From Peribacillus sp. FSL P2-0133 (GTDB lineage: Bacteria; Bacillota; Bacilli; Bacillales; DSM-1321): DNA of 64,000 nucleotides. The stretch spans positions 1,796,001-1,860,000 of the forward strand of contig NZ_CP150254.1 in NCBI RefSeq assembly GCF_037975445.1, written 5' to 3'. This document shows positions 53,951 through 64,000 of this stretch, piece after piece; the stretch's first letter is position 1, and the number at the start of each line of letters is the position of its first letter. The notes under the pieces were generated by a model. That model was not told the DNA's origin. It did not search any database and saw only the letters and a program-made list of their open reading frames with translations. The position numbers and the translations under genes were made by a program.

Positions 53951-55285
53951 TTGGCAAAGTTCACACGTGAAGACATCACTCGTTTAGCGAAAGAAGAAAA
54001 TGTTAAGTACATTCGTTTACAATTTACTGACATTTTAGGGACAATTAAAAACGTTGAAATCCCAGTCAGTCAATTAGAAAAAGCACTTGATAATAAAATG
54101 ATGTTTGACGGATCTTCCATTGAAGGATTCGTACGTATCGAAGAGTCTGATATGTACCTATATCCTGATTTAAATACATGGGTTATCTTCCCTTGGACTT
54201 CCGAAAAAGGTAAAGTTGCACGTTTAATCTGTGATATTTACAATACGGATGGAACACCTTTTGATGGAGATCCACGTGCAAACCTAAAACGTGTACTTGC
54301 AGAAGCAAGAGAAATGGGCTTCACAGATTTCAATCTTGGACCTGAACCTGAATTCTTCCTATTCAAACTGGATGCAGCAGGCGAGCCGACTCTAGAATTG
54401 AACGATAAAGGCGGATACTTTGACCTTGCACCTACTGACCTAGGAGAAAACTGCCGTCGTGATATCGTTCTTGAGCTTGAAGAAATGGGATTTGAAATCG
54501 AAGCATCCCACCATGAAGTAGCTCCAGGACAACATGAAATTGACTTTAAATATGCAGATGCAATTTCAGCTTGTGATAACATCCAAACATTTAAATTGGT
54601 TGTTAAAACGATTGCCCGTAAACATGGTTTACACGCAACATTCATGCCAAAACCATTGTTCGGTGTTAACGGATCTGGTATGCACTGTAACGTTTCTCTA
54701 TTCAAAGGCAACGAAAACGCATTTTATGATAAAGAAGGTAAATTGGAATTAAGTAAAACAGCTGAGCAATTTATCGCAGGTATCATTAAGCATGCTCCAA
54801 GCTTCACTGCGGTAACAAACCCAACTGTTAACTCATACAAACGTCTAGTTCCTGGTTACGAAGCTCCTTGTTATGTTGCATGGTCCGCTAAAAACCGTAG
54901 CCCACTAATCCGTATCCCAGCTTCACGCGGAGTAAGTACTCGCGTAGAGGTACGTAGTGTCGATCCAGCAGCAAACCCATACTTGGCACTTGCAGTTCTG
55001 CTAAAAGCTGGTCTTGACGGTATCAAGAACGACTTGACTCCTCCAGCTCCAGTTGACCGCAATATCTATGTAATGAATAAAGAAGAGCGTGAAGAAGTAG
55101 GTATCGTTGATCTACCAGCTACTTTATATGCTGCATTGGAAACATTAAAATCCGATGAAGTCATCAAAGAAGCATTAGGTGAACATTTACTTGAACACTT
55201 CGTCGAAGCAAAAGAAATCGAGTGGGATATGTTTAGAACACAAGTTCACCCATGGGAACGCGAACAATATATGTCAATGTATTAA
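53951..55285 (+). CDS. glnA: Glutamine synthetase, type I
   Basis: 444-residue dodecameric enzyme making glutamine from glutamate, ammonia and ATP, and partner of GlnR/TnrA in nitrogen sensing. Motifs: FDGSSIEGF, the ATP site [14 protein letters not shown], glutamate/metal region EPEFFLF and [12 protein letters not shown]; the latch arginine region is [13 protein letters not shown]. The TTG at 53951 follows AGGGGGAA. Its last 17 codons and terminator recur at 60489-60596 as a direct repeat, so the 3' end has been a recombination site. Confidence 0.97.
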
Positions 55286-55336
55286 TCTTTAAAACCCTTG
55301 GCACCTTTGGTGTCAGGGGTTTTTTTATTTCGGGCA
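55229..55336 (+). repeat. Direct repeat copy 1: glnA 3' end plus terminator (attL-like)
   Basis: Begins ATGTTTAGAACACAAG inside glnA, runs through the stop codon and the terminator and ends at CGGGCA. It matches 60489-60596 with only 2 differences in 108 bases (A versus G within the GAACAATAT stretch, and G versus A in the last bases). Confidence 0.9.
55291..55330 (+). terminator. glnA terminator
   Basis: AAAACCCTTGGCACC / GGTGTCAGGGGTTTT stem with two mismatches, then TTTTTT. Confidence 0.88.
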
Positions 55337-55505: not shown

Positions 55506-55543
55506 GGTGTCTTTTTTTATTATTCTAAATAGGAGTGATTAAT

Positions 55544-56170
55544 TTGGCAGAAGAGAAAAAAAGCTATAGAGCATCTACCGGTGTGAATGAATTTTATTAT
55601 GCGGTTTTAACAGATGACGATGACCATTCATTTACGGCTGGTGAAATTACCCGGATTAAATTTCTGCAAAATATTGAGGTAGAAATGCCGCAAGAAGCGA
55701 TGAGGGCCTATGGGGATAGTGGTACAGCTGAAATTGCTATTTCAGGTGGAAATGTAACAGTATCCACTCAATTTCACAAAGTACCCATTCAGGATAAGAA
55801 TATTTTATTTGGTCTAGAAACAGTGGACGGACTTTCGTCCATTGGCGGTGAGGATGTGCCACCTTATGTGGCAGCGGTATTTACTAAGACATTTGAGGAC
55901 GGTTCTAAAGAGTGGGTGGGGCTTACAAAAGGAATGTTCATGCGTTCTAAAATTTCCGGTAAAACCAAAGAAGAAAACAAAGAATTTGATAATGAAGAAG
56001 TCACTGGAGAATTTATGGAGCGTTATGTAGAAGGAACCGAATCTGAAAAATCAGTTCTTTTCGGAGCTGACAAAAAAGGTGAAACAGACAGCCGGGATTC
56101 TCTATTCCAAAAGATATTTGGCAAACCTTATCCAGGAACAACTGGAGAGCAAGGTGGTGTGGAAGGATAA
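55544..56170 (+). CDS. Phage major tail protein (phi13/TP901-1 type)
   Basis: 208 residues with the family architecture: TGVNEFYYAVLTDDD at the N terminus, an immunoglobulin-like beta fold, KTFEDGSKEWVGLTKGMF in the middle, and a Glu/Lys-rich C-terminal half (KTKEENKEFDNEEVTGEFMER). Forms the tube of siphophage tails. The TTG at 55544 has AGGAG 8 bases upstream; a GTG at 55535 overlaps that site. Tail assembly and tape-measure genes are missing downstream, so it is a stranded prophage remnant even though the frame is intact. Confidence 0.78.
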   Translation: MAEEKKSYRASTGVNEFYYAVLTDDDDHSFTAGEITRIKFLQNIEVEMPQEAMRAYGDSGTAEIAISGGNVTVSTQFHKVPIQDKNILFGLETVDGLSSIGGEDVPPYVAAVFTKTFEDGSKEWVGLTKGMFMRSKISGKTKEENKEFDNEEVTGEFMERYVEGTESEKSVLFGADKKGETDSRDSLFQKIFGKPYPGTTGEQGGVEG

Positions 56171-56195: not shown

Positions 56196-56438
56196 TTAAT
56201 TTTTCCTTTTAGTGAAGGTTCTAAAGAAACAATTTACTGTCCTAGACACTTCTTTCAACTGGTGAATTACTTTCATTAAAGGCTGTTTATTTAATGAAGT
56301 AAATCTTTTTGTATCTGGGTTCAATTTTGTAATTGGTAACCAAATGGAAATATTTGTTTTTATGTGAATAAGTCGAAAATATATAAGGGTGAACAAAACC
56401 TTGTATATTTTCGACTTGATGCAAAAGCACCAGTTTTA

Positions 56439-57155
56439 TCATTGACAACTGTACTTGAACTTAGGTTCTGTCTGAATATAAAAGGCATTTCTTACTTGTG
56501 CACTCCAATTTGCAAAGGCTGATCTCCATTCAGGAGTGTTAAAGAATTGATCAACAGTTTGAGTTTCAGAACGCCAAACTATAAATAGGTTGAGTGGGGC
56601 AATTCCTCCTGCCCAAATTCCATTATTTGCGTCAGTATCTTCTTCCCTAACTAATAATAAGGGTAGACCAAATTGAAAAGCCATTGAAGGTTCTACTTGT
56701 GAATAAACTGATCCTTCCCAGAACGGAGTGGATGGTGGAAGGGGTCCCTCATTAACGCCAACGGTCTTAATTTGAAAACGACGGAGGTTTACTGCTAACA
56801 TTCCATAGCTTGATGAAACTAACCGACGAATATCGGTTAAAATGGCTTCGGGATAACTTTCGCTTAAAGGTAATGTACGTGGAAAAAGCAAAGCATTCTC
56901 AATCTCAAAAATTAGACGGTTTAGAAACTGTTGTTGGTTATCATTTAAATGAGTTGTCGTACTTAAAAATATGGGAATACGATAAGCACGGTCAATACAC
57001 TCTTGGTGTGCCGATCCTATTTTTGCTTCATCTTTACGTAAAGAGCTATGCTCATTATTACTCACTTTCTCTTCATCTTTGCGTAAAGAGCTATGCTCAT
57101 TATTACTCACTTTCTCTTCATCCTTGCGTGAAGAGCTATCCTTATTTTTACTCAC
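56439..57155 (-). CDS. Protein with 15-residue N-terminal repeats and a possible NDT/TIR-like domain
   Basis: 238 residues. The first 45 are nearly three tandem copies of SSLRKDEEKVSNNEH (the first begins at the GTG start 57155, after AAGGTGAG). The body reads IPIFLSTTTHLNDNQQQFLN, then PRTLP, SSSYGMLAVNLR and VEPSMAFQFGLPLLLVREE. This order (strand with Ser/Thr, helix, later Gly-x-hydrophobic strand, conserved Glu, Gly-(L/K)-P) resembles nucleoside 2-deoxyribosyltransferase/TIR-like Rossmann folds used in signalling and anti-phage systems. That assignment is inference; no partner gene is adjacent. Confidence 0.6.
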   Translation of the reverse strand: MSKNKDSSSRKDEEKVSNNEHSSLRKDEEKVSNNEHSSLRKDEAKIGSAHQECIDRAYRIPIFLSTTTHLNDNQQQFLNRLIFEIENALLFPRTLPLSESYPEAILTDIRRLVSSSYGMLAVNLRRFQIKTVGVNEGPLPPSTPFWEGSVYSQVEPSMAFQFGLPLLLVREEDTDANNGIWAGGIAPLNLFIVWRSETQTVDQFFNTPEWRSAFANWSAQVRNAFYIQTEPKFKYSCQ

Positions 57156-57160
57156 TTTCT
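57020..57160. repeat. 45-bp in-frame tandem repeat
   Basis: Two nearly identical 45-bp units and a third diverged one (GTAAAGAGCTATGCTCATTA core), encoding the 15-residue repeats of the preceding gene. Confidence 0.85.
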
Positions 57161-57528: not shown

Positions 57529-57873
57529 ATGAGTACAATTCGTGATAGAGGGCTCGTTAAATGGCAAGCTGCATTAATTATGCCGGAACATAAAGCTTTA
57601 AATAAAAAAATAGGTGAGGTCGATTATTTTCTAAATAAAAAACCTATCCTTGATGAATACCAGGTTGAAGAGTTTGAAAACAATATTCACTATGTGATGG
57701 AATATCATTTACCGATAAGTTTTACATTACATAATGAGGGAAATTCAAAAGAATTGCATGGATATTGTGTGTACATTCATCCTGTTACGAAAGAGTTACG
57801 AATCCAGAAGAAAGATAGTTCCTTTGAGTATATTCAATTTGGTAATATCATTAATGTAATCGTTGAGGATTAA
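57529..57873 (+). CDS. YolD-like protein
   Basis: 114 residues with the YolD-like start IRDRGLVKWQAALIMPEH and a C-terminal SH3-like strand region. YolD proteins are normally encoded in front of the Y-family polymerase gene uvrX/yqjW and are SOS-induced. Here the SOS box is present but no polymerase gene follows, only a terminator. The ATG has AAAGGAGGG upstream. It may modulate a polymerase encoded elsewhere or be a leftover of a lost pair. Confidence 0.82.
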   Translation: MSTIRDRGLVKWQAALIMPEHKALNKKIGEVDYFLNKKPILDEYQVEEFENNIHYVMEYHLPISFTLHNEGNSKELHGYCVYIHPVTKELRIQKKDSSFEYIQFGNIINVIVED

Positions 57874-59730: not shown

Positions 59731-60141
59731 CTATTCCAACATGAAGCAGGTCTTTCCTATTTTTGGATAAGTTTTCCGTAAATAGGACTCCTCAAATACA
59801 GTATAAGTTCGTATATCCTTTTTTCTCTTCATTGGTACTTGGCGGATCATGCCTAGGTCTTCAAGTTTTTTCATTAAACGTTGTACTGTTTTATAAGAAA
59901 CTTCAAGCTTATCTGCAATTGTATTCTTACACATATAGCTCACATCGATTTGATTGCAGCTGTGACGCTTTAAAATCTCTAACAATTTAATTAATCTAGC
60001 TTGTACATCTACACGTTTTACAGAAGCACGAATGGCGTCTCGACAAACTCGTACATTCTTATTTAATTCTTCTACGTCAATGAAAGATGATAAGTTGTTA
60101 TATGCTTCTTCATTTGCGATTACATAGATACGTTTCTTCAT
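59731..60141 (-). CDS. Helix-turn-helix protein, replication/relaxation-regulator type, possibly truncated
   Basis: 136 residues from the ATG at 60141 (MKKRIYVIANEEAY). The centre carries a winged-helix pattern IADKLEVSYKTVQRLMKKLEDLGMIRQV, found in small Bacillus plasmid or mobile-element regulators. After KRKKD the sequence is short and ends at FMLE, whereas I recall relatives continuing, so a 3' truncation is possible. The frame stays open upstream to 60297, but without a ribosome site. Three short repeats lie upstream at 60359-60390. Confidence 0.6.
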   Translation of the reverse strand: MKKRIYVIANEEAYNNLSSFIDVEELNKNVRVCRDAIRASVKRVDVQARLIKLLEILKRHSCNQIDVSYMCKNTIADKLEVSYKTVQRLMKKLEDLGMIRQVPMKRKKDIRTYTVFEESYLRKTYPKIGKTCFMLE

Positions 60142-60488
60142 TAATTTGGTCTCTTTTAGGAAACAAAAAAGCAACGATTCACCATTGATTAGCAAACCGT
60201 TACGAAGAAACCCATAATGTAATAAACTACATCTAAGGGTGCAGCAAGTGTTTGCATATTCAGAGTAGGCGGACGGTTTAAGAAGTGCTACCAACACGAC
60301 TTTAACACGCTGTGCTCTTTTATTTTGTTTTTTTAAATGAATATTACACTAAAATACTGCCCGAAAATCACCCGGTAAATGCCCGATAATGCTTGAGTTA
60401 TTATGATTTATTTTGATAGATAAATTCAAAGGAACCCTTATAAATAGGTATTTTTGTGCAAGATTGACACTATATTAACGGTTAGTAC
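60142..60488. other. Region upstream of the helix-turn-helix gene with iteron-like repeats
   Basis: 347 bases without a gene. On the - strand, three tandem units ATTATCGGGC, ATTTACCGGGTG and ATTTTCGGGC occupy 60359-60390. The rest is AT-rich. Confidence 0.4.
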
Positions 60489-60596
60489 ATGTTTAGAACA
60501 CAAGTTCACCCATGGGAACGCGAACGATATATGTCAATGTATTAATCTTTAAAACCCTTGGCACCTTTGGTGTCAGGGGTTTTTTTATTTCAGGCA
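60489..60596 (+). repeat. Direct repeat copy 2: displaced glnA 3' end plus terminator (attR-like)
   Basis: Carries the last 17 codons of glnA in frame after an ATG, with one change (Gln to Arg in WEREQY), the stop, and the complete terminator (60551-60590). It starts at ATGTTTAG and ends at CAGGCA. No ribosome site precedes it, so it is not expected to be translated. Confidence 0.9.
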
Positions 60597-60746
60597 AATA
60601 TAGGTTAAACAAATTTATGCTATGACTCTTGATAAACGAACAAAAGCATGTTTTGAGAAAAGATTAATTATTTTTGTGTTCCTTCATCAGCTCTAATAAA
60701 TCATATTTGCACCAGAACCCATTTGTTAGTGAGGATATAGCATTTT

Positions 60747-60800
60747 TAGTAGGTTGATTAACTAATTATGAGTCTGCATTTCCTAGGGCAGCACTTAAAG
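60747..60800 (-). pseudogene. Relic of a further DUF3992/Ena-like gene copy
   Basis: 48 of 54 bases match 61357-61410, the internal part of the intact DUF3992 gene at 61283-61621 (starting TAGTAGGTTGATTAACT). No open frame survives. It lies just past the stop of the other paralogue. Confidence 0.65.
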
Positions 60801-60804
60801 TGTT

Positions 60805-61152
60805 TTAAGCTAGAATACGCTTGTATAGCGTCAGATTGTATGTCCCACTTGTTCCTGCGGGCATTTGAATAACAAAAGAAGTTGGATTTTTCACATTTTT
60901 ACCAATCGTATTTCCTGGTGGTACTGGCCCGATCGTAGTTGTAACAGGAGCTGTTGATGAATTGACTGTACCTGTTACAGTTGTAACGCTTGCAGCAGAA
61001 TTAAAAATCTCAAAAGTCCCTTCAATGTAAGTACCAACGGGAGCAGTAAATACCGTCTCATCTACTACTCCAATTGTTGGACCATTAAAATTACCGCAAA
61101 TGCTTTCTTGAAATATCTGAGCAGGAGGACAACAAGAGTCATAAAAACACAT
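60805..61152 (-). CDS. DUF3992 protein, S-ENA-like endospore appendage subunit (paralogue A)
   Basis: 115 residues from the ATG at 61152 (MCFYDSCCPPAQIF), preceded by AAAGGAGAA. An N-terminal Cys-Cys (C7-C8) connector and C19 (ICGNF) precede an eight-strand jelly-roll-like core (GTFEIFNSA) and the terminal strand YNLTLYKRILA. This is the layout of Ena1A/Ena1B, which polymerise into disulfide-locked fibres on B. cereus-group spores. The cysteine of the last strand seen in Ena1B and in the paralogue at 61283 is Asn106 here. The family call rests on pattern recognition. Confidence 0.72.
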   Translation of the reverse strand: MCFYDSCCPPAQIFQESICGNFNGPTIGVVDETVFTAPVGTYIEGTFEIFNSAASVTTVTGTVNSSTAPVTTTIGPVPPGNTIGKNVKNPTSFVIQMPAGTSGTYNLTLYKRILA

Positions 61153-61282
61153 TGTATATTTCTCCTTTCGATTGATTTTTTCCAGATATGTTTTATCTGT
61201 TCGATACTTGATCTTCATTCCTCTAATAGAGTATGAAGTCCGTTTTAAAAGATATAGAGTAATAAATTCCTTTATATCTTTA

Positions 61283-61621
61283 TTACGCTAGAACACGCTT
61301 ATACAAATTGATACAATATGACCCATTATCTCCAGCACCTGCTGTAATAGTAAAACTAGTAGGTTGATTAACTGATTGTGAGTCAGTATTTCCTGGAGCA
61401 GCACTTAAAGCTATCGCTGGAGTTGATGTCCCTGTAGCCGTTACTGTAGCAGTACTAGAAGCTGAGTTGAAAATTTCAAAAGTTCCTGAAGAATAAGCGC
61501 CTGCTGGAGCAGACCATATTTCCACACCCGTTAAAGGGCCGTTAAAATTACCACAAATTTTTTCTTGAAACACCTGTGCAGGAGGGCAGCAACCTCCGTT
61601 AATTCCATTTGAACCACACAT
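61283..61621 (-). CDS. DUF3992 protein, S-ENA-like endospore appendage subunit (paralogue B)
   Basis: 112 residues, start MCGSNGINGGCCPPAQVF behind GGAGGAATT. C11-C12 form the N-terminal connector; C23 (KICGNF) and C103 (SYCINLYKRVLA) match the positions that in Ena1B accept disulfides from neighbouring subunits. The core is Thr/Ser/Ala-rich beta. It shares CGNFNGP, GTFEIFNSA and LYKR-LA with the gene at 60805, so the two arose by tandem duplication. It would be made in the mother cell and exported to the spore surface by assembly, as no signal peptide is present. Confidence 0.75.
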   Translation of the reverse strand: MCGSNGINGGCCPPAQVFQEKICGNFNGPLTGVEIWSAPAGAYSSGTFEIFNSASSTATVTATGTSTPAIALSAAPGNTDSQSVNQPTSFTITAGAGDNGSYCINLYKRVLA

Positions 61622-61921
61622 TATGAATTCCTCCTATTTACTATTAAACAGCTTGTATTAGCCATTCAATATTATAGAATGTAAATTTTGCAATTTTGCA
61701 ACTGACATGAGTGTAATATTTGCTAAATTATTTTAATTCCGTTAATAGAAATAGAAAAGGTGGAAGGCAATTTCCCTTAAATATGTGGAATACTTATGAA
61801 GGATAAAGAAGTGAATAGAACTCCTTTAGGATTTAAAATAGTTTGATTACTTGTAGAAAAGTTTACGTTTCAGTAACTATTTTTTTATTTTACAATGGCT
61901 GGGTTCCTTGTTGCATTTTTC
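61622..61921. other. Intergenic region between DUF3992 genes
   Basis: 300 bases, AT-rich. It must contain the promoter of the 61621 gene; on the - strand CATTCTATA (one mismatch to the SigK -10 CATANNNTA) is seen, but without a good -35. A direct repeat TGCAAAATTGCAAAAT is near it. Confidence 0.35.
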
Positions 61922-62413
61922 TTATTTATCTTTTTTTTGTTTACGTTTGTCATCGCAAATAACAGGAAAGCATACTTCCAAATAATATTTCCCCTCAGTT
62001 CTCCCTGTGTCTATCCCAAATACGATAATCGATTCGGCAGCATCTACTGTTGCTGAAAGCGTATTGCCAGAAGGAACGGAGAATTCAACTGGACTTTCAT
62101 CATTTCGATTCACGAGAACCCGAACCGATGCAGTGCTCATAGCACTATTGAATACAGAGATTGTTACGGTAGCGTCCATCAAAATTCTCGCTTTCCAAAT
62201 TTCTAGACTCGGAACCTGATCGGTCAATAACAGATTACCACATGTGCTATTGCATACAATTGGTCCTGACATTTCTGTAGGTATATTTACTTTCACTTTG
62301 ATTTTTTTCTCGACTATGCATTTGCATTTTTTGTGCCCACAAACTCTACATTTTTCATGCTTGCATCTGCATTTAGTGTACTTGCAATCTGAACATTTTT
62401 TTTGTTTACTCAA
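61922..62413 (-). CDS. Cys-rich DUF3992-like protein (Ena1C-like)
   Basis: 163 residues. The TTG at 62413 lies behind GGGGGTGG. The N-terminal 35 residues hold nine Cys and many Lys (KCSDCKYTKCRCKHEKC). Next come GPIVCNSTCGNLLLT, then a beta core (VTISVFNSAMSTASVRV, ESIIVFGIDTG) and YYLEVCFPVICDD, the DUF3992 pattern. The C-terminal tail is Lys-rich. It is longer than the two neighbours, as Ena1C is in the B. cereus cluster, where that subunit is needed for fibre assembly. The Cys-rich extension could be metal-binding or a cross-linking anchor. Confidence 0.65.
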   Translation of the reverse strand: MSKQKKCSDCKYTKCRCKHEKCRVCGHKKCKCIVEKKIKVKVNIPTEMSGPIVCNSTCGNLLLTDQVPSLEIWKARILMDATVTISVFNSAMSTASVRVLVNRNDESPVEFSVPSGNTLSATVDAAESIIVFGIDTGRTEGKYYLEVCFPVICDDKRKQKKDK

Positions 62414-62478
62414 ATTACTTCCACCCCCTAATTCAAGTTACTATATTTCTATTAATATACTGTACAAATTGCCTGTAC

Positions 62479-62694
62479 TTATAACTTGAACAAGGGTTTT
62501 ATGATTAAAAATGGGACTACTTTTGGTGTATTTATGGGAATCACGTTAGTTAAACAGGAAGGTTTTCCATTGTCAGGAACCGCGGTTTCTATACCGTTAA
62601 AAATAACCGTTTCTTTAGTTGTATTTTCTAAATCATCCCTAACTTGAAGATATGTAAATTCATCCCCGGTGAAATATCGTGAAACAGAAATGAA
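62479..62694 (-). pseudogene. Remnant reading frame without a start codon
   Basis: Codons from 62694 to the stop at 62479 encode a coherent sequence (SRYFTGDEFTYLQVRDDLENT, continuing to ETVIFNGIETAVPDNGKPSC and PLFKL). No ATG/GTG/TTG is usable and a TAG (62697-62695) closes the frame upstream. Probably a decayed gene of the spore-surface cluster. Confidence 0.45.
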
Positions 62695-62769
62695 CTATTT
62701 CCGAAAAAAAATGAACAATAGAACAACCTACTATGTAGATAAGGGCAAATAAGCCCTTTAAAGTACTAA

Positions 62770-63174
62770 TTAATATCCAAAATACCTGGGAGGGCAGCAT
62801 GGATTGTGCGTTGGCTTTCCACATATCAGGTGTTGTGTATAACATTCGTTCACCACGGATTGAGTGTGAGGAAAGTAATGCTTATACGTGTTTACATGTT
62901 TATTGACAGTTGTAGTATGTGATGGATGAACGACAGGAATTACTGTGTTCGATACGTTCGTATTAATATATTGCTGTGTTGGAGAGACTTGCGCTGGAGC
63001 AACTTGAGTAGGAAGTGTTTGCGCGGGGCAATGTTGTACTGGAGACGTAGGCATTGGACTAAAGGCTCCCATAACGTTGGAGTGTTTACCAGTTGATGCG
63101 CCCATTACTCCAGGTGCGTTCCCGAACGCTCCCATTACATGGGGGTTATTTCCTCCAATATTACGAAAAAACAT
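62770..63174 (-). CDS. CotD-like spore coat protein
   Basis: 134 residues. The C-terminal half has the CotD pattern VVHPSHTTTVNKH and HYFPHTQSVVNE, ending CGKPTHNPCCPP. The N-terminal half has a repeated PxVMGAF/PGVMGA motif and a Gln/Pro/Thr linker (AQVSPTQQYI). CotD is an inner-coat, SigK-controlled protein in B. subtilis. The ATG at 63174 follows GAAAGGATG. Its place beside the DUF3992 genes defines a spore-surface cluster. Confidence 0.82.
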   Translation of the reverse strand: MFFRNIGGNNPHVMGAFGNAPGVMGASTGKHSNVMGAFSPMPTSPVQHCPAQTLPTQVAPAQVSPTQQYINTNVSNTVIPVVHPSHTTTVNKHVNTYKHYFPHTQSVVNECYTQHLICGKPTHNPCCPPRYFGY

Positions 63175-63396
63175 TTATAATACATCCTTTCATTAAGATT
63201 TCATTACACTTGTAGTTTATGAAAAAAATGGTAGGTTTGTACTATTGAAAAAGCCTTTTAAGACAAGAATAGGCATAGAACATATGTTGCAATCAAAGTC
63301 GTCTCATTGGGCGGCTTTTTATTATGTATACATCCTAGGCATACAGAGAGTTAAAGAGAATTTTTATGTTAAGGGGGGACCTGAACATTTTAGGAA

Positions 63397-63618: not shown

Positions 63619-63684
63619 GCTGCCCATTGGGTGGCTTTTTCTTATTAATTTCAATTAAAAATATGGGTTCTGGTATGAATTCAG

Positions 63685-64000
63685 TGGTGAAAGCATCAAC
63701 CTTAGAAATGATTAAGCGTGCCTATAAAGAAGGTATTTACGCACAAATCAGCGCTGGTTATCGCTCCATGGAAGAACAGGCGGCTTTATTTGGCCAAGGT
63801 CGTTTTTATAGCTACAAAGGTAAAAATTATAGCAATCTAGCCAAGCCAAAGGTGACAAACGCTAAGCCAGGACAATCATTCCATAACTTTGGAGTAGCAA
63901 TTGACTTTTTTCTTGTCAGTGAGGACGTAAAAACCATTGTGGGCTATTAACTCTAAATGGAAACGAGTAGCTGTTATTGGTAAAGAATTAGGGTTTAAAT
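63685..64000 (+). pseudogene. M15 L-alanyl-D-glutamate endopeptidase (phage endolysin), frameshifted and cut by the window edge
   Basis: The frame encodes the Ply500/CwlK-type M15 core: MIKRAYKEGIYAQISAGYRSMEEQAALFGQGR, then GQSFHNFGVAIDFFL with metal residues His and Asp. It breaks at about 63938. The expected continuation WAINSKWKRVAVIGKELGFK is in another frame (from about 63939 to the window end), while the original frame hits TAA at 63948-63950. The C-terminal metal histidine region is beyond the window. No ribosome site is seen for the N terminus. Confidence 0.65.

Follow-up and report, generated by a model that had tools for sequence, protein, structure and literature searches.

A putative S-ENA-type spore appendage gene set in a variable tract at the 3' end of glnA in Peribacillus sp. 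FSL P2-0133

Could spores of Peribacillus sp. FSL P2-0133 bear disulfide-linked fibres, and did the genes for such fibres arrive on mobile DNA? Both questions are raised by a cluster of small cysteine-rich proteins near the right end of the 64,000-nucleotide stretch analysed here (the window: contig NZ_CP150254.1, positions 1,796,001 to 1,860,000 of the forward strand; all coordinates count from its first letter, and those above 64,000 continue the same numbering). An earlier note, made from the sequence alone, had read positions 60747-63174 as a spore-surface cluster in which three DUF3992 genes, laid out like the endospore appendage (ENA) genes Ena1A, Ena1B and Ena1C, stand with a CotD-like gene between phage relics. 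The three ena genes form a variant of the S-ENA type, well supported by family and fold. G numbers below denote genomes and L numbers loci, and papers cited by PMC number are represented by excerpts.

The ena gene set and its products

Three consecutive minus-strand genes (60805-62413) match the Pfam family PF13157 (Enas, the DUF3992 family) above its 22-bit cut-off, so the hidden Markov model search suggested in the earlier note came out in its favour. Two of them encode short S-ENA-type subunits, enaA (60805-61152, 115 amino acids; 36.1 bits, E 7.3e-9, for the longer frame 60805-61218) and enaB (61283-61621, 112 amino acids; 44.7 bits, E 1.5e-11), and the third, enaC (61922-62413, 163 amino acids; 37.6 bits, E 2.5e-9), encodes an Ena1C-like anchor with a TTG start at 62413; the order on the coding strand is enaC-enaB-enaA. 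The start of enaA is most likely the ATG at 61152 rather than the beginning of that longer open reading frame at 61218, because an AAGGAG-type ribosome site lies upstream of it and the resulting N-terminus, MCFYDSCCPP, has the MC...CCPP start common to most relatives. All three frames are intact, and each is preceded by a ribosome-site-like sequence (judged by eye). EnaA and EnaB are 56% identical to each other, and EnaA is 75% identical to one ENA of Bacillus sp. EAC. The genome yielded no further Enas match at E up to 0.1; NCBIfam holds no relevant model for EnaA, EnaB, EnaC or CotD, a PHROGs scan of six ENA and CotD proteins returned no family at E up to 0.01, and DUF4183, the mark of F-ENA, had no match at E up to 1 in ten proteins scanned. 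As in an S-ENA cluster, two genes for short subunits accompany one for an anchor, in an orientation unlike that of B. paranthracis. PF13157 is common overall (79 of 397 genomes of the order), so the occurrence of an ENA beyond the B. cereus group is by itself no novelty.

Profiles built from 13 short subunits (A2) and from seven EnaC-type proteins (A3) were compared with solved ENA structures: A2 matched Ena2A best (9i0y, E 3.7e-13) and then Ena1B (7a02, E 9.4e-10), and A3 matched Ena1C (9t3p, E 2e-8). The AlphaFold model of EnaB has a mean predicted local distance difference test score (pLDDT) of 88.7, and that of EnaC a mean of 74.4, low up to residue 48. When the models were searched against the PDB with Foldseek, the top five matches of EnaB were all ENA chains (E 2.0e-7 to 4.9e-7, the next match being at 1.2e-3), as were those of EnaC, with Ena1C (9t3p) first at E 1.9e-8 and unrelated jelly rolls from 8.8e-5 onward. 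Both proteins are thus predicted to adopt the ENA jelly-roll fold, and the family search, the profiles and the modelled folds agree with the layout of two short Cys-Cys proteins and one longer Cys-rich protein that the earlier note had compared with Ena1A/B/C.

The cysteines of EnaB are at positions 2, 11, 12, 23 and 103, the last four being the equivalents of Cys10, Cys11, Cys24 and Cys109, the linking positions of Ena1B (PMC8619143), all of which are kept. EnaA has cysteines at positions 2, 7, 8 and 19 and none at its C-terminus. The Cys-Cys pair of the N-terminal connector is present in both short subunits (C7-C8 in EnaA, C11-C12 in EnaB). Judged by sequence, EnaB is a full S-ENA-type subunit, and EnaA and EnaC are variants, EnaC not being filed as a proven Ena1C equivalent.

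Like the Ena1C anchor, EnaC carries a cysteine-bearing N-terminal extension ahead of its ENA domain, a leader of 50 residues (62264-62413, minus strand) composed of two CxxC...CxC repeats followed by KVKVNIP, with all eight of its cysteines within residues 1-32. Nothing comparable to these 50 residues is present in the other aligned EnaC proteins; tblastn finds them in common with collagen-like proteins of the genus. When EnaC was searched against the 397 genomes of the order, the matches starting before residue 20, apart from EnaC itself, were collagen-like frames of G130 and G033, and a match in G151 from residue 30 is to the ENA domain. The leader by itself was found by tblastn in seven of the 36 genomes of the genus, the present one included (best E 1.1e-9; 41-50% identity in the six best matches outside this genome), and no second copy was found in this genome at the search threshold. 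Frames were read at 14 of the 21 other matches' loci, covering all six other genomes, and at the locus of G130; all 15 run into Gly-X-X repeats, the longest run being of 10 to 167 triplets, and at each of them none of 500 shuffles with cysteines fixed aligned as well as the leader (L180 and L185 yielded one and the same frame). A collagen-like protein of Bacillus sp. EAC (L125), considered as a further relative of the leader, failed the same comparison, 209 of 500 shuffles being as good (167 of 500 in an earlier run). The match of EnaC residues 1-50 with the leader of collagen-like proteins suggests an interchangeable spore-docking module that is shared with them and joined here to an ENA ring domain; the collagen-like proteins that bear it presumably sit on the spore. 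PMC12921279 describes the Ena1C linker's receptor as unidentified, and if EnaC uses the leader of collagen-like proteins, the docking of S-ENA fibres to the spore becomes testable. Several proteins with a CxxCGHxKCKC leader and collagen-like repeats are encoded on one 158-kb contig (G031:C1; L176, L182, L186, L189, L191, L192), of which the 40-60 kb part matches mostly Peribacillus plasmids (9 of 16 records), in line with the likely Peribacillus-like host of the earlier note.

The glnA 3' end and its mobile surroundings

The ena genes lie to the right of glnA (53951-55285, plus strand; Gln-synt_C and Gln-synt_N), in which the 3' end is the attachment site. The sequence contains a 108-nucleotide repeat of the glnA end and terminator (55229-55336, plus strand) with a second copy, 98% identical, at 60489-60596 (plus strand), an attachment-like scar left of the ena genes; a weak third copy (46 nucleotides, 85%) is at 109095-109140. 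The gene order miaA, spoVK, hflX, glnA is chromosomal (names from domains and order). The glnA end was found in all 36 genomes of the genus, with more than one match in 22 of them (some of the extra matches being far from glnA), and among the 14 of 35 relatives from which downstream DNA was taken, 12 have a tyrosine integrase or a remnant of one directly after glnA, the misses being G008 and G024. The 3' end of glnA is an integration hotspot. In the present genome the variable tract extends from 55.3 kb to about 110.2 kb and encloses the ena genes, the shared backbone resuming at about 110.2 kb in comparison with G020, G021 and G024 and at about 111.3 kb with G016, G029 and G007; this outer boundary rests on genome comparison, the third glnA copy being short. 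Because parts of the tract (63.5-65.2 and 68.8-72.5 kb) are found again beside the backbone of G020 and G021, it was evidently built in several steps. Its right part (85.6-106.4 kb), which begins with terminase-like and ends with amidase-like frames, resembles a tailed prophage by eye. The mobile neighbourhood that the earlier note had postulated is borne out by the glnA 3'-end duplicate, the variable tract and the integrases of relatives.

Two other views of the site were abandoned. Placement of the ena genes outside the island, as suggested by their position beyond the second glnA copy, was overturned by the comparison with relatives, in which a larger variable tract encloses them, and a tRNA attachment site was ruled out by ARAGORN, which finds no tRNA in the window. 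Literature searches, judged from their listings, found no paper on glnA as an attachment site in Bacillus. In the phage collection, four records labelled 'Listeria phage' (H25-H28) gave matches to the glnA region and have the look of stray pieces of chromosome.

The DNA between the first two glnA copies (element 1, 55.3-60.6 kb) contains a relic of a phi13-type phage major tail protein (55535-56170, plus strand; TIGR01603 127 bits, phrog_88), a 958-bp stretch (56202-57159) 91.9% identical to plasmid pBM300 of Priestia megaterium, a YolD-like gene (57529-57873, plus strand; PF08863 70 bits) and, at its end, a phage gene of helix-turn-helix/replication type (59731-60297, minus strand; phrog_1835, E 1.3e-39). 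The plasmid-like stretch encodes an uncharacterised 238-amino-acid protein with repeats near its N-terminus, and in pBM300 its counterpart lies near genes annotated as YheC/YheD, YvrJ and collagen-like. In G007 and G001, DNA of 59813-60614 occurs again, accompanied by the glnA repeat. On the other side of the ena genes is a fragment of a VanY-type peptidase (63627-63950, plus strand; PF02557 49.4 bits), probably a phage endolysin, after which another open reading frame follows beyond the end of the window. There are accordingly phage relics on both sides of the cluster, the tail protein and the helix-turn-helix/replication-type gene to the left and the peptidase to the right, as the earlier note had it.

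Its CotD-like gene is also confirmed: an inner spore coat protein of this type (62770-63174, minus strand; PF11122 41.5 bits, E 1.9e-10) is encoded upstream of enaC and is 93% identical to a CotD inside the glnA-flanked island of another genome of the genus (G028). A sigma-K-like promoter of cotD, ACA-N16-CATAAACTA (63213-63240, minus strand), agrees with the consensus at nine of nine positions, and 1.1% of single-base shuffles are as good. ENA expression is expected late in the mother cell, likely under sigma K (PMC12921279).

Ancestry of the ena genes and a phage-borne set

EnaB matches only four of 43 genomes of the family, namely its own, G032 (weakly, in a short frame) and two of another genus, G037 and G038, so that within the genus it is matched only in its own genome and weakly in G032. 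Both G037 and G038 have tandem S-ENA-type arrays. That of G038 (L121, G038:C54, 7311-13044) comprises eight short ENA genes and an EnaC-like gene, and in G037 the C-terminal tail of EnaC includes a hydrophobic stretch.

The main phylogenetic tree comprises 25 short subunits, among them all eight short genes of G038 and three of the four of G037; an earlier tree of 20 rows had six of the eight and two of the four, and the larger one gained G691 (a genome of another family of the class), ISL-84 and further array genes. After a first 25-row tree the long branches were taken out, namely Gottfriedia, Alkalihalobacillus, G037_3, G022 and G011, and most of the 79 PF13157-positive genomes were left out of the trees. 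In the 25-row tree the window genes belong to a group of 11 (support 99/97) with Halobacillus, Paenibacillus cremeus, Bacillus sp. EAC, ISL-84, G691 and a phage; within it EnaA groups with two genes of Bacillus sp. EAC (97/89), and EnaB groups weakly with G691 and the phage pair (84/79). A single clade of the window genes with the S-ENAs of G037 and G038 was rejected by the approximately unbiased (AU) test (p-AU 7.7e-8 with 25 rows, 3.5e-7 with 20), as was a sister relationship of EnaA and EnaB (p 0.0017 and 0.008, respectively), these p values being weakened because the clades to be tested were chosen in the light of the first tree. A grouping of EnaB with only the phage pair was not rejected (p-AU 0.27) but was not the best tree. 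The short subunits thus have no recent ancestor in common with the S-ENAs of the other genus of the family. The ratio of nonsynonymous to synonymous substitution (dN/dS) lies at about 0.15-0.24 when EnaA and EnaB are compared with relatives, and the third-position GC content (GC3) of enaA (0.23) and enaB (0.21) is below the 0.29-0.45 of four neighbouring housekeeping genes.

Other ENA genes were encountered in varied settings. The record of 'Pseudomonas sp. ISL-84' (L135, JAGGRA010000096.1), which is probably misnamed or contaminated, has an intact frame of an S-ENA relative and Bacillus-like genes. A divergent S-type ENA pair is located beside a tyrosine-recombinase-like frame in two genomes (L079, G011:C4, 2724-4259; L078, G022:C2, 9035-10581), the contig of G011 being 10.4 kb long and plasmid-like by eye, and the ENA of G011 matches one plasmid of Paenibacillus sonchi at 38% identity. 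A lone ENA-like protein with 14 cysteines (L071, G021:C10, 10443-10898) adjoins YolD and a MobA/MobL-like relaxase frame (names by eye). The ENA domain is fused to a longer N-terminal part in Paenibacillus cremeus (L136, 6484-7089) and is contained in a 428-amino-acid frame of G691 (L216, 8592-9878).

A set of similar composition is found on a viral contig, IMGVR_UViG_2537561999_000003 (G424/L140), a linear record of 39.3 kb and the sole match in the viral_contigs collection. Its genes include terminase, portal, major head, tape measure, holin, endolysin, repressor-type, AimR and FtsK/SpoIIIE-like genes, and at 3.0-5.0 kb from one end it has two ENAs and an EnaC-like gene together with YolD, bounded by the endolysin gene on one side and the FtsK-like gene on the other, so that phage genes flank the set. 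The EnaC-like gene and both short ENAs pass PF13157. In SpaA1 and TS-12, phages that share lysis-region DNA with this contig, the interval between amidase and FtsK is occupied instead by a repressor-type gene and a few small genes. A phage ENA searched against 398 genomes of the class matched EnaB of the window best (E 2e-39) and G691 next (E 4e-35). By its gene content the contig is that of a temperate phage with a complete EnaA/B/C-like set, and ENA genes in phages are not mentioned in the excerpts of five papers (PMC12921279, PMC11952670, PMC8619143, PMC11602404, PMC2716549). Such a contig would make spore adhesion traits a matter of lysogenic conversion, and phage-borne sets would help to account for the patchy distribution of S-ENA-type genes; spore hairs may pass between species via viruses.

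The proposal that appendage genes travel with mobile DNA is supported for ENA genes in general, by this contig, and for the place of the present set; a phage carrier of this particular cluster is possible.

Proposed function, rival readings and known systems

The explanation that we consider probable is that an S-ENA-type set was gained horizontally at the glnA 3'-end hotspot, a phage attachment site, of a Peribacillus-like chromosome, EnaA and EnaB being the fibre subunits and EnaC the ring-type anchor. EnaB, with EnaA mixed in, would build a staggered disulfide-linked fibre, its N-terminal Cys-Cys connector serving to stack the subunits, a ring of EnaC would form the fibre base, and the Cys-rich leader of EnaC, the module that opens collagen-like proteins of the genus, would dock the ring to the spore surface. 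Disulfide-linked fibres on the spores of this organism, which the earlier note had predicted, are plausible from the sequences. A tentative extension, to which we give limited credence, is that temperate phages carry full interchangeable appendage kits as lysogenic-conversion genes and that, after landing in the hotspot, the anchor was refitted with the collagen-like leader of the host.

Several observations weigh against these proposals. EnaA has Asn at the Cys109 position (GTYNLTLYKR against GTYCITLYKR in EnaB), and EnaC has Tyr144 at the position equivalent to Cys142 (EGKYYLEVC against EGRYC in 9t3p, in which the aligned residue is taken to be Cys142 from its spacing of six to the next Cys); the C142S variant of B. 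paranthracis Ena1C does not restore fibres (PMC12921279). The missing cysteines of EnaA and EnaC are a real warning for fibre formation, and C148 or C153 of EnaC might substitute for Cys142; among the other six EnaC-type proteins of profile A3, five have Cys at this position and one (G402) has Ser. No convincing sigma-K promoter precedes enaA, enaB or enaC (21%, 86% and 100% of shuffles as good, respectively), and enaA is adjoined by a broken enaB-like fragment of 54 nucleotides (60747-60800, minus strand; 89% identical to 61357-61410 of enaB, with an in-frame stop), which forms the left edge of the region singled out in the earlier note. With respect to acquisition, one integrase query had no match in this genome from 47 to 116 kb, and the GC3 of enaC (0.33) and cotD (0.35) is within the housekeeping range. 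With respect to a phage carrier, EnaB is nearer to the chromosomal gene of G691 (68% over 108 columns) than to the phage ENAs (63-64% for one of them), and the phage EnaC is only 39% identical to that of the window, for which reasons a phage origin of the cluster is put forward as a possibility only; in the 20-row tree, before G691 was added, a phage ENA had seemed to be nearest to EnaB (97/94). Of five viral_contigs scans, one found an ENA and the other four, with A5, A6, A7 and EnaC as queries, were empty; scans of this kind use short peptide patterns and can miss relatives. Tblastn searches gave no match for EnaB, EnaC or a phage ENA in the phage collection, and none for EnaB in the plasmid collection.

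The same missing cysteines, weak ena promoters and stop-bearing fragment, together with the phage-gene relics around, are what would be expected if the set had been acquired and had since decayed, so that anchored fibres are no longer made. We consider such a relic unlikely, because the three frames are intact with ribosome-site-like sequences upstream, because dN/dS is well below 1 over a long comparison (which is silent on the recent branch), and because the EnaC of G402 also lacks the cysteine, so that its loss is not unique. That the products are coat components forming rings or sheets and no long fibre would be in keeping with the CotD gene beside the cluster and with Ena1C, which makes rings and not fibres (PMC12921279), but EnaB has the full fibre cysteine set and the connector, and the short-subunit profile best fits the fibre subunits Ena2A and Ena1B; this reading is improbable. 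Most improbable of all is vertical inheritance of an ancestral S-ENA set lost from nearly all relatives: although two genomes of the same family (G037 and G038) have S-ENA-type arrays, a tree uniting the window genes with these in one clade was rejected, EnaB is matched in so few genomes of the family, and the set sits in a hotspot. Ancient paralogy with differential loss is a remote possibility. Horizontal acquisition of an S-ENA-type set is the preferred explanation, and the likeness of the set to known systems is as follows.

Like the S-ENA of B. paranthracis (Ena1A/Ena1B/Ena1C; 7a02, 9t3p), the set combines PF13157 jelly-roll subunits with an N-terminal Cys-Cys connector, and two short subunits with a longer Cys-rich anchor in a single cluster. 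It differs in that all genes are on one strand with enaC first, whereas ena1C of B. paranthracis is oriented opposite to ena1AB (PMC12921279), in the absence of the Cys109 equivalent from EnaA and the Tyr at the Cys142 position of EnaC, and in the eight-cysteine leader of EnaC, the linker of Ena1C having four Cys and nine Pro (PMC12921279). Ena2A of Bacillus thuringiensis (9i0y), the best profile match of the short subunits, is only 18% identical to EnaB in the Foldseek alignment and belongs to another organism and place. The set of the G424 phage resembles that of the window in its two short ENAs and EnaC-like gene, one ENA being 63-64% identical to EnaB, but its EnaC is on the opposite strand, keeps the Cys142 equivalent and has another N-terminal linker, and the set is beside lysis genes. 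The ENA domain of the G691 protein is the nearest sequence to EnaB in this analysis, yet by its neighbours it is chromosomal, it stands at the start of a long protein, and no EnaC-like frame of at least 90 amino acids was listed within 20 kb of it. The L-ENA system (Ena3A with L-BclA and ExsL) has the PF13157 fold in common, and elsewhere in the genus L-ENA-like subunits have collagen-like and ExsL-like neighbours (labels by likeness), but the open reading frame lists show (by eye) neither a collagen-like nor an ExsL-like gene next to the set of the window, a short frame of Gly-X-X repeats being located 4 kb beyond cotD (67273-67620). Finally, lysogeny in B. anthracis, in which temperate phages alter the spore surface architecture (PMC2716549), offers a parallel, although that work concerns phage sigma factors and an altered exosporium rather than phage-borne appendage genes.

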